This document shows, piece after piece, positions 30,751-32,966 of a stretch of 32,966 nt of DNA. Made by a program: the position numbers and the translations under genes. Within the stretch, counting starts at the first letter, position 1; each line of letters opens with the position of its first letter. This DNA is from Nitrospirota bacterium (GTDB lineage Bacteria; Nitrospirota; Leptospirillia; Leptospirillales; Leptospirillaceae), in contig JAKBXW010000012.1 in NCBI GenBank assembly GCA_021840555.1, positions 1-32,966 on the forward strand. Direction: 5' to 3'. The notes under the pieces were generated by a model. It did no database searches. It saw only the letters and a list, made by a program, of their open reading frames with translations, and was not told the origin of the DNA.

Positions 30751-31671
30751 TTGGCCCGAAGCTCTCCCCAAAATGTCGAATCCCTGCTCGACCGCTTCGA
30801 GGAAGAGCTCCTTCTGGCCCAGGGAAAATCCCAAAATACTGGCCAGGCCTACCTCTCCGACCTCCGCGCCTTCGCCCGATTTCTGGTCCCTTCCGGCAAG
30901 ACCCTTTTGACCTTCGACCAAGAGGATCCCGGCCGATACTTCTCGGAAAAAGGGGATCTCTCGGCCCGCTCCCGCTCCCGCATCCTCTCCTCCCTCAAGT
31001 CCTGGTCGCGGTTCCTCGAAGTGGAAGGAGTCCGGAAAGACCCCACCGAGGAGCTCTCCTCCCCTAAAATCCCCCGTTCCCTGCCTAAAGTCCTGAGCCA
31101 GGAGGAGATCGCCCGGCTCATCAGCGCTCCGGATGAAAAGCGGGCCGAAGGGATCCGGGACCGGGCGATCCTCTCCTTCTTCTACGCCTCGGGGCTCCGG
31201 GTCTCCGAGGTGGCGACCTTCCCCCTCGAGCGCCTGAACCTCGAGACGGGGGCGCTCGTGGTCACGGGAAAGGGCGCCAAGGAGCGGATCGCCTTCCTCG
31301 ACGCTTCCTCCCTCGTCCACGTCCGGCGCTACACGGAAACGGTCCGCCCGCTCTTTCGCCCCGCCGGCCCGGAGCTCTTTGTGGCCCGGGGCGGGGCGCC
31401 CCTCACCCGCCAGGCCCTCTGGACCCTGATCAAGAAGTACGGGAAGAAGGCCGGGATCACCTCCCCCCTCTCCCCCCATGTCCTCCGCCACTCCTTCGCC
31501 ACCCATCTCCTCGAAAAAGGCCTCGACATCCGCTCCATCCAGCTTCTCCTGGGCCACGAGGACATCCGCACGACAGAGATCTACACCCACGTCTCTCTGG
31601 CCCATCTCAAAAAAACCCTCGAAGAGCACCATCCCCGGGGGAAGTCCTCATCCCGGAACGGCACGACGTGA
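30751..31671 (+). CDS. xerD: XerC/XerD-type tyrosine recombinase
   Basis: 306 residues, the size of XerC/XerD, which resolve chromosome dimers at dif. N-terminal SAM-like DNA-binding domain (LLDRFEEELLLAQGKSQNTGQAYLSDLRAF), then the catalytic domain with all key residues: R150 (GLRVSE), K174 (GKGAKER), H243 and R246 (HVLRHSF), H269 (LLGHEDI) and nucleophile Y278 (EIYTHV). XerC versus XerD cannot be settled by eye; the symbol is provisional. TTG start with GGAGG at 30741-30745, 5 bases away; no in-frame ATG fits. Located just after three lipoprotein genes and followed by a terminator-like hairpin. Confidence 0.9.
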   Translation: MARSSPQNVESLLDRFEEELLLAQGKSQNTGQAYLSDLRAFARFLVPSGKTLLTFDQEDPGRYFSEKGDLSARSRSRILSSLKSWSRFLEVEGVRKDPTEELSSPKIPRSLPKVLSQEEIARLISAPDEKRAEGIRDRAILSFFYASGLRVSEVATFPLERLNLETGALVVTGKGAKERIAFLDASSLVHVRRYTETVRPLFRPAGPELFVARGGAPLTRQALWTLIKKYGKKAGITSPLSPHVLRHSFATHLLEKGLDIRSIQLLLGHEDIRTTEIYTHVSLAHLKKTLEEHHPRGKSSSRNGTT

Positions 31672-31757: not shown

Positions 31758-31864
31758 GATCCGGATCGACTCACTTTCAACGGTCCGCCTGGATGCCGAA
31801 AGGAACCCATCGTGCGATTCTCCGCTCCAGCCCTTCCCCATTTATCTCTTTCGGACCGGTCGTG

Positions 31865-32647
31865 ATGGCCCTTTCCCTTTCGGTCTGCATTCTCACGTAC
31901 AACGAGGAGGAGAATCTTCCCGGGTGTCTGGACTCCCTCGTGGATCTTGAGAGCGAAATCGTCATCCTCGACTCCGGAAGCACCGACCGGACACGCGCCA
32001 TCGCGGAGGAGGCCGGAGCCTCCTTTCATATCCACTCCTTTGACGATTTCGGATCCCAGTACAATCGCCTTTTCAATCTGGCCACACGACCCTGGATCCT
32101 GAATCTTGATGCCGACGAACGGCTCTCTCCCGAACTCTCCCGATCGGTCCGGGAGCTCTTCAAGGATCCGGACCGCCTCGAAAGGTACCGGGGATTCTCC
32201 TTCAACCGGCTGAACTATTTTATCGGAAAGCCCATATACCATAGCGGGTGGGCGCCCGATCCTCTTGTCCGTCTCTTCCGGAAAGACTCGGGCGAAATGG
32301 AGCGCCGACAGGTCCATGTCCAGATCCTGGTCAAGGGAGAGATCGCATCCCTAAACGGGAATCTCATTCATTTCACTTATCGTTCCCTCGACGGATACCT
32401 CTCAAAATCGACAAAATATGCGAAGCTTGCCGCCCGTGAAATGCAAATCCGTGGACGATCTCCGTCCCTTTGGGCTCTTCTGGCCCATCCGGCCGGCATG
32501 GCAGTAAAGATGTATTTTCTGAGGCGGGGATTCCTCGACGGGAAAGAAGGCCTCTTTCTGGCGGGACTCTATGCCTATTACACATTTCTCAAATATCTCT
32601 ATCTTTATTATCCCGATGGAAGGTCTCCCTCCTCTCAAAAAGAATAG
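31865..32647 (+). CDS. Family 2 glycosyltransferase, LPS core (WaaE/LgtF)-like
   Basis: 260 residues from ATG 31865 (ALSLSVCILTYNEEENLPGCL), the natural GT-A N-terminus. ATG 31793 in the same frame would add 24 non-conserved residues. The nucleotide-sugar region IVILDSGSTDRTRAIAEEAG and the metal motif LNLDADERLS are clear, followed by GWAPDPLVRLFRK. The C-terminal part is basic, ending with aromatic-rich FLAGLYAYYTFLKYLYLYYP, probably a membrane-associated helix. The pattern matches WaaE/LgtF-type sugar transferases that extend the lipopolysaccharide core; donor and acceptor unknown. It has its own promoter candidate. The tail of the gene and the sequence after it are AT-richer than the rest of the window. 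Confidence 0.87.
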   Translation: MALSLSVCILTYNEEENLPGCLDSLVDLESEIVILDSGSTDRTRAIAEEAGASFHIHSFDDFGSQYNRLFNLATRPWILNLDADERLSPELSRSVRELFKDPDRLERYRGFSFNRLNYFIGKPIYHSGWAPDPLVRLFRKDSGEMERRQVHVQILVKGEIASLNGNLIHFTYRSLDGYLSKSTKYAKLAAREMQIRGRSPSLWALLAHPAGMAVKMYFLRRGFLDGKEGLFLAGLYAYYTFLKYLYLYYPDGRSPSSQKE

Positions 32648-32677: not shown

Positions 32678-32966
32678 TCACAGGATAAAGCACTCGAGAA
32701 TCCTGGACGCGATCGCATCCAGAATAAAAAGCCCCTCTCCCGTCAAGACAAGAGCCTCGCAATTCGTACGATCTATCTTGGCAAGTCCTTTTCGTACGAT
32801 ATCATCAAGAACAATACGTACACTATCCGATTTCGTACGAATTGAAATCCATTCGACAGGAACCCCCGTGCAAAGGCGCAAATTCGTATAGAGGAACTCA
32901 ACATCATGGTCGCGGGCGGTGAGAGTTTCGGTTGAGACCACCGGATGCTTTCTCATGATTCGTACG
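32678..32966 (-). CDS. Possible partial gene of unknown function
   Basis: On the minus strand the frame is open from the window edge to 32678. The first ATG (32956) lacks a ribosome site, so the true start would lie outside the window. The visible 92-residue product (KHPVVSTETLTARDHDVEF, then CTGVPVEWISIRTK and LVLTGEGLFILDAIAS) has ordinary composition but matches nothing I know. The palindromic repeats run through it in different frames, which argues against simple coding constraint. It could be real and truncated, or non-coding. Confidence 0.3.
   Translation of the reverse strand, partial: VRIMRKHPVVSTETLTARDHDVEFLYTNLRLCTGVPVEWISIRTKSDSVRIVLDDIVRKGLAKIDRTNCEALVLTGEGLFILDAIASRILECFIL
32763..32966. 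repeat. Cluster of TTCGTACGAW palindromes
   Basis: Close copies at 32763-32772, 32791-32800, 32832-32841 (perfect TTCGTACGAA) and 32959-32966 (cut by the window end), plus weaker versions near 32814 (ATACGTAC) and 32883 (TTCGTATAGA). Spacings are 28, 41 and 127 bases. Confidence 0.65.

Follow-up and report, generated by a model that had tools for sequence, protein, structure and literature searches.

A HemW-like radical-SAM gene of the Leptospirillaceae carries in its final third an array of CGTACG palindromes, and comparison of homologous genes has shown that the array is kept by selection at the DNA level. It is present in every family genome where the hemW-like gene could be found and, to our knowledge, has so far not been described. 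That the CGTACG copies are DNA-level binding sites is a well supported prediction. With evenly balanced confidence we propose that they form an intragenic operator array, bound by the product of the divergent neighbour gene and regulating both that gene and hemW.

Location of the CGTACG array

The window, that is the whole stretch of 32,966 nucleotides that was analysed, is the entire contig C38 of assembly G000. A motif scan located exact TTCGTACGAW at 32763-32772, 32791-32800 and 32832-32841. The first two sites are both TTCGTACGAT and read on the minus strand as CGT-ACG (Arg-Thr) and GTA-CGA (Val-Arg), respectively; the third, TTCGTACGAA, is a perfect 10-bp palindrome with the codons CGT-ACG. 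A degenerate site, ATACGTACAC, with the core CGTACA (one mismatch) lies at 32815-32824, and a weak remnant with two core mismatches, TTCGTATAG, at 32884-32892. The fourth palindromic site, TTCGTACG at 32959-32966, is truncated by the contig end, and in contig C102 it is found whole as TTCGTACGAT. The cluster reported in a previous sequence-only reading of this DNA was hence recovered in place: three exact copies, the truncated fourth and the degenerate ones. When up to one mismatch is allowed the window holds 10 motif matches, against a mean of 2.5 and a maximum of 8 in 100 dinucleotide shuffles.

Over its final 150 bases C38 overlaps an end of C102 in reverse-complement orientation, with one mismatch, and the two contigs can therefore be joined. 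In the joined sequence CGTACG starts at 32765, 32793, 32834, 32961, 32991 and 33006, giving six exact copies within 247 bp, and occurs next only at 34171. The expectation that the array would extend past the window end was thus correct, the join adding the copies at 32991 and 33006.

The array occupies the final third of a gene that is encoded on the minus strand and ends at 32678; the 3′ end of this gene fills positions 32678-32966 of the window, and the gene runs on into C102. Overlap join and translation give an ORF unbroken across the join, of 391 amino acids from a plausible start. The protein matches Radical_SAM (PF04055) and by sequence resembles the HemW/HemN radical-SAM family, the closest NCBIfam model being the HemW equivalog TIGR00539; since its score of 158.6 bits lies under the cut-off of 205.4, the gene is named HemW-like. 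Homologues were detected in 39 of the 41 genomes searched, some of them only as weak paralogue matches. We know of no arrays of DNA sites in the HemW/HemN family. A second small repeat, AAACATGTTTTCAACATATTTTAAACATGTTTT, is located in the same ORF at codons 101-112 (about 33566-33600 of the joined sequence, G000:C102) and has two copies of the palindrome AAACATGTTT, in an AT-rich patch of the gene.

In several MAGs, namely the window's own genome, G005, G013 and G016, the hemW-like gene is located where a contig ends, and G013 has two differing versions of it (77% and 60% protein identity). Assembly at this locus (L041, L042, L043, L084) may break through strain variation or mixed populations.

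Frequency and distribution of the sites

There are 102 copies of CGTACG in the 2,117,502 bp of the window's own genome, a rate that predicts about 0.012 copies per 247 bp; the six observed are therefore far beyond chance. The genome-wide search that the sequence-only reading had asked for returned six rows for TTCGTACGAW. Five of them correspond to the hemW-like array, because the palindrome is counted on both strands and C102 continues the array, and the sixth is an exact TTCGTACGAT inside a biotin-synthase-like ORF on contig C40. The motif is thus concentrated in one array and is not equally frequent elsewhere.

In a search of 21 whole family genomes for two CGTACG copies separated by 6-36 bp, pairs were detected in 15, and in 13 of these every pair lay inside the hemW-like gene. 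G001 and G003 have one stray pair each, at the boundary of unrelated genes, and are without a good hemW-like match. The six pair-less genomes are also without such a match and are all incomplete (64-80%), MAG incompleteness leaving the locus missing from several family genomes. No second conserved CGTACG array was found across the 21 genomes. Outside the family, 18 hemW-type loci were counted in other families of the Nitrospirota, with 0-1 CGTACG in each.

These data bear on whether the hemW-like locus might be merely the densest target of a protein that acts widely, be it a regulator, a methylase or a nucleoid protein. Such a protein could account for the roughly 100 scattered copies and for the exact one in the biotin-synthase-like ORF, but the scattered copies occur at or below the Markov expectation and the pair search yielded only the two strays at unrelated genes, which makes this explanation distinctly unlikely.

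Selection on the DNA sequence

Fourteen homologous genes of the family were compared, some of them partial, the relatives being 38-77% identical in protein. Each contains 4-8 copies of CGTACG. Codon sampling from the window's usage predicts 0.1-0.7 copies per gene, a figure that is approximate for the more distant species, as the same usage was applied to all. Within-gene synonymous shuffles, free of the weakness of a borrowed codon usage, predict 0.5-1.9 copies, with p values of 0.0005-0.0025 in each of the 14 genes. In the codon alignment the sites fall in all three codon phases, encoding Arg-Thr, x-Val-Arg or x-Tyr-x, and their aligned positions differ between lineages while the total number is kept. 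Hence it is the DNA that is maintained and not a peptide, in agreement with the earlier suggestion, made from copies in different frames, that conservation acts on the DNA. The sites employ the valine codon GTA, which is rare: in the ORFs sampled it encodes 6 of 343 valines. Not only codon choice but amino acids too seem to have given way to the array.

A pure coding effect, in which the motif would arise from Val-Arg and Arg-Thr dipeptides conserved towards the C-terminus of HemN, is hardly credible. The region is indeed coding, and VR or RT is kept at some aligned positions in many relatives; however, neither codon model approaches the observed number of copies, the sites turn over in three phases, and other members of the phylum are without them. 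The coding explanation was accordingly rejected on the codon models and the phylum controls. The sequence-only reading had held that a conserved coding sequence whose codons explain the repeats would speak against a conserved DNA motif: the region does belong to the coding sequence of a HemW-like gene, at its 3′ end, but its codons fail to explain the repeats.

Site anatomy

The flanks are mostly Y-CGTACG-R followed by A/T, the core being invariant by construction of the search. Within the genus there is no clear enrichment of copies with one mismatch in the core, which shows that an exact core is important; such copies are somewhat more frequent in G015, G017 and G014. Site centres are never less than 15 bp apart, no helical phasing of the spacings was found, and the flanks of neighbouring copies are no more complementary to each other than those of random copies. 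Separate sites for a protein on double-stranded DNA therefore fit better than RNA stems.

An RNA element, in which the palindromes would pair in the hemW transcript to form hairpins controlling translation or decay, was nevertheless considered. Each copy is able to pair with any other, site-to-site pairing is frequent in predicted folds, and the folding energy is somewhat below that of synonymous shuffles (z −0.7 to −2.9), although any repeated palindrome yields this energy bonus. Together with the uncomplementary flanks, a core that is invariant and not covarying, copies that also precede both divergent genes and an Rfam search that gave no match render an RNA element very unlikely.

Gene neighbourhood and candidate binder

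In the orientation of the window the genus order is an XerC/XerD-type tyrosine recombinase (30751-31671, plus strand), a family-2 glycosyltransferase (31793-32647, plus strand), the convergent hemW-like gene, a gap and a divergent small gene, beyond which a MoxR-type ATPase gene lies in most members of the genus. In most of the relatives that were examined the recombinase gene has stayed close to the array, and it is regarded as context; the glycosyltransferase gene is missing at this place in several relatives. The gap between the hemW-like and small genes is AT-rich and about 350-450 bp long. It contains short blocks conserved in the genus (L041-L051), among them an A/T core and, close to the small gene, CATACG; these are perhaps two divergent promoters. 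Genus relatives with full upstream sequence have, with few exceptions, a single CGTACG before the divergent gene and another at the hemW start. In G015 and G017 these upstream copies are missing or degenerate, and the window's own genome has just a one-mismatch copy at the hemW start.

As far as the sequences indicate, the protein encoded by the divergent gene (G000:C102 ORF 15969-16415, minus strand) is the most likely candidate for the array binder. It begins with a helix of about 40 residues, which is followed by a linker variable in both sequence and length; the second half of its C-terminal domain, SRDLKNAIRVALIRRRPQVVS, is nearly invariant in the genus. AlphaFold2 predicted a 41-residue N-terminal helix and a C-terminal helix-helix-helix-strand-strand arrangement, that is a winged helix, which is far better conserved than the linker; with single-sequence input the full-length model is weak (pLDDT 61) and that of the C-terminal fragment usable (79). 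The nearest Pfam families, both sub-threshold, are WH_Rok and HARE-HTH, the former matching 5 of 9 members (best E 0.0024). The match to the PDB Rok sequence has an E of 0.67, and a fold search gave generic winged helices including Rok 5zuz (TM 0.67, E 0.37), none with E <0.001.

When 296 phylum genomes were searched, the small protein was found in 12 of the 12 family genomes in which the upstream hemW flank is visible, and there was no convincing match among about 275 other Nitrospirota, where remaining matches have E >1e-4. This co-occurrence is weak proof of a functional link, because protein and array are both family-wide and together represent a single evolutionary event.

Rok, a xenogeneic silencer of Bacillus subtilis (PF23159, PDB 5zuz/5zux), resembles the neighbour protein in having an N-terminal helix, a linker and a C-terminal winged helix. 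It prefers AACTA/TACTA in AT-rich DNA, and the genome in which it resides is depleted of these words (PMC6212790), much as the G015 sample is of CGTACG. Rok sites are distributed genome-wide, whereas the array sites, CGTACG with a central TpA, are concentrated at one locus. Membership of the Rok family is not claimed, the match being sub-threshold and many unrelated winged helices scoring equally well or better.

Proposed model and alternatives

CGTACG is over-represented and conserved at the orthologous loci, as would be the case for a transcription-factor operator array. In the operator model the neighbour protein, as a dimer or oligomer, would occupy the promoter-proximal sites and the intragenic array together, with dimerisation taking place via its N-terminal helix. 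The bound protein would bridge or loop the DNA of about 1-1.5 kb between promoter sites and array, and this would lead to repression and autoregulation of the divergent pair; the array could also serve as a store for the regulator. We infer that the neighbour protein is the binder and that it oligomerises, loops the DNA and represses. Operators had been among the roles suggested previously and are plausible; in most genus relatives candidate sites lie near both divergent promoters. It is unusual for simple repression that the sites are more numerous in the 3′ end than at the promoters. In lac O2 and gal OI a promoter-proximal site is combined with sites in the regulated gene, and looping is possible. 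What sets the array apart from these is that 4-8 copies lie within the gene, in its 3′ third and thus about 1 kb downstream, and that they turn over in three frames.

The main rival to the operator model is a chromosome-organising or segregation site of the parS, NBS, matS or SBS kind, served by a protein of its own, either the neighbour or a different one, the position in hemW being historical. The sites of ParB (parS), Noc (NBS), MatP (matS) and SlmA (SBS) are, like those of the array, short palindromes, several per chromosome and allowed in genes, and the TTC-NNNN-GAA layout resembles those of parS and NBS. One array per genome, copies tolerated in coding sequence and a number kept despite turnover would all suit such a role. 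In G015, a one-contig relative, the array is terminus-proximal, 135 kb from a dif-like site, and outside the array CGTACG is among the most depleted palindromic hexamers of the G015 sample (O/E 0.55). However, the terminus-relative position comes from one genome, the depletion is absent in the other sample (O/E 0.95), ParB is already accounted for by its own parS, and the copies near two promoters suggest gene regulation. A chromosome site is therefore considered unlikely.

ParB itself was rejected as the binder of the array. There is one ParB per genome except in G002, and the parS TGTTCCACGTGGAACA was present in 7 of the 7 genomes tested, adjoining parB where linkage is visible, as in several relatives; ParB is disfavoured for this reason. 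The array does not match the parS pattern TGTTNCACGTGNAACA, its core being CGTACG with GTAC at the centre, and differs from parS also in that all strong sites lie at one locus. No match to ParB_N (PF02195) was found at the array locus in the seven genomes searched. G002 encodes two extra weak ParB_N-like proteins (G002:C73:21372-21569 and G002:C43:36-242), and there is no CGTACG in the 7 kb around the C73 gene.

Two further roles raised in the sequence-only reading, replication-origin iterons and a site for a recombination protein, find no support in G015. Its skew places the origin near coordinate 0 while the array is at 1.10 Mb. The best dif-like site, AATAATGTATATTATGTAAACT at C1:1236015 (4 mismatches in 23), is near the skew flip, and no dif-like sequence coincides with the array, which lies 135 kb away.

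An undescribed site-protein system was also envisaged, in which a family-specific winged-helix protein with an N-terminal helix would assemble on palindromes in the coding sequence of a metabolic gene. Beyond repressing one promoter, the complex would organise or anchor the terminus-proximal chromosome, or would silence the locus as a local chromatin island; we regard it as rather unlikely.

Concluding remarks

No literature on such sites in Leptospirillum surfaced, and the titles listed among the matches for the string TCGTACGA were unrelated. It is difficult to prove that protein-binding sites within a coding sequence are under selection. In the array the number of sites is kept while they shift reading frame, as in enhancer turnover, and this makes it a convenient case in which to test dual-use coding DNA of bacteria. 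Moreover, the array points to an uncharacterised family of DNA-binding proteins in Leptospirillum-type bacteria and connects a gene of the heme-chaperone-like type with either a dedicated regulator or a chromosome-organising site.
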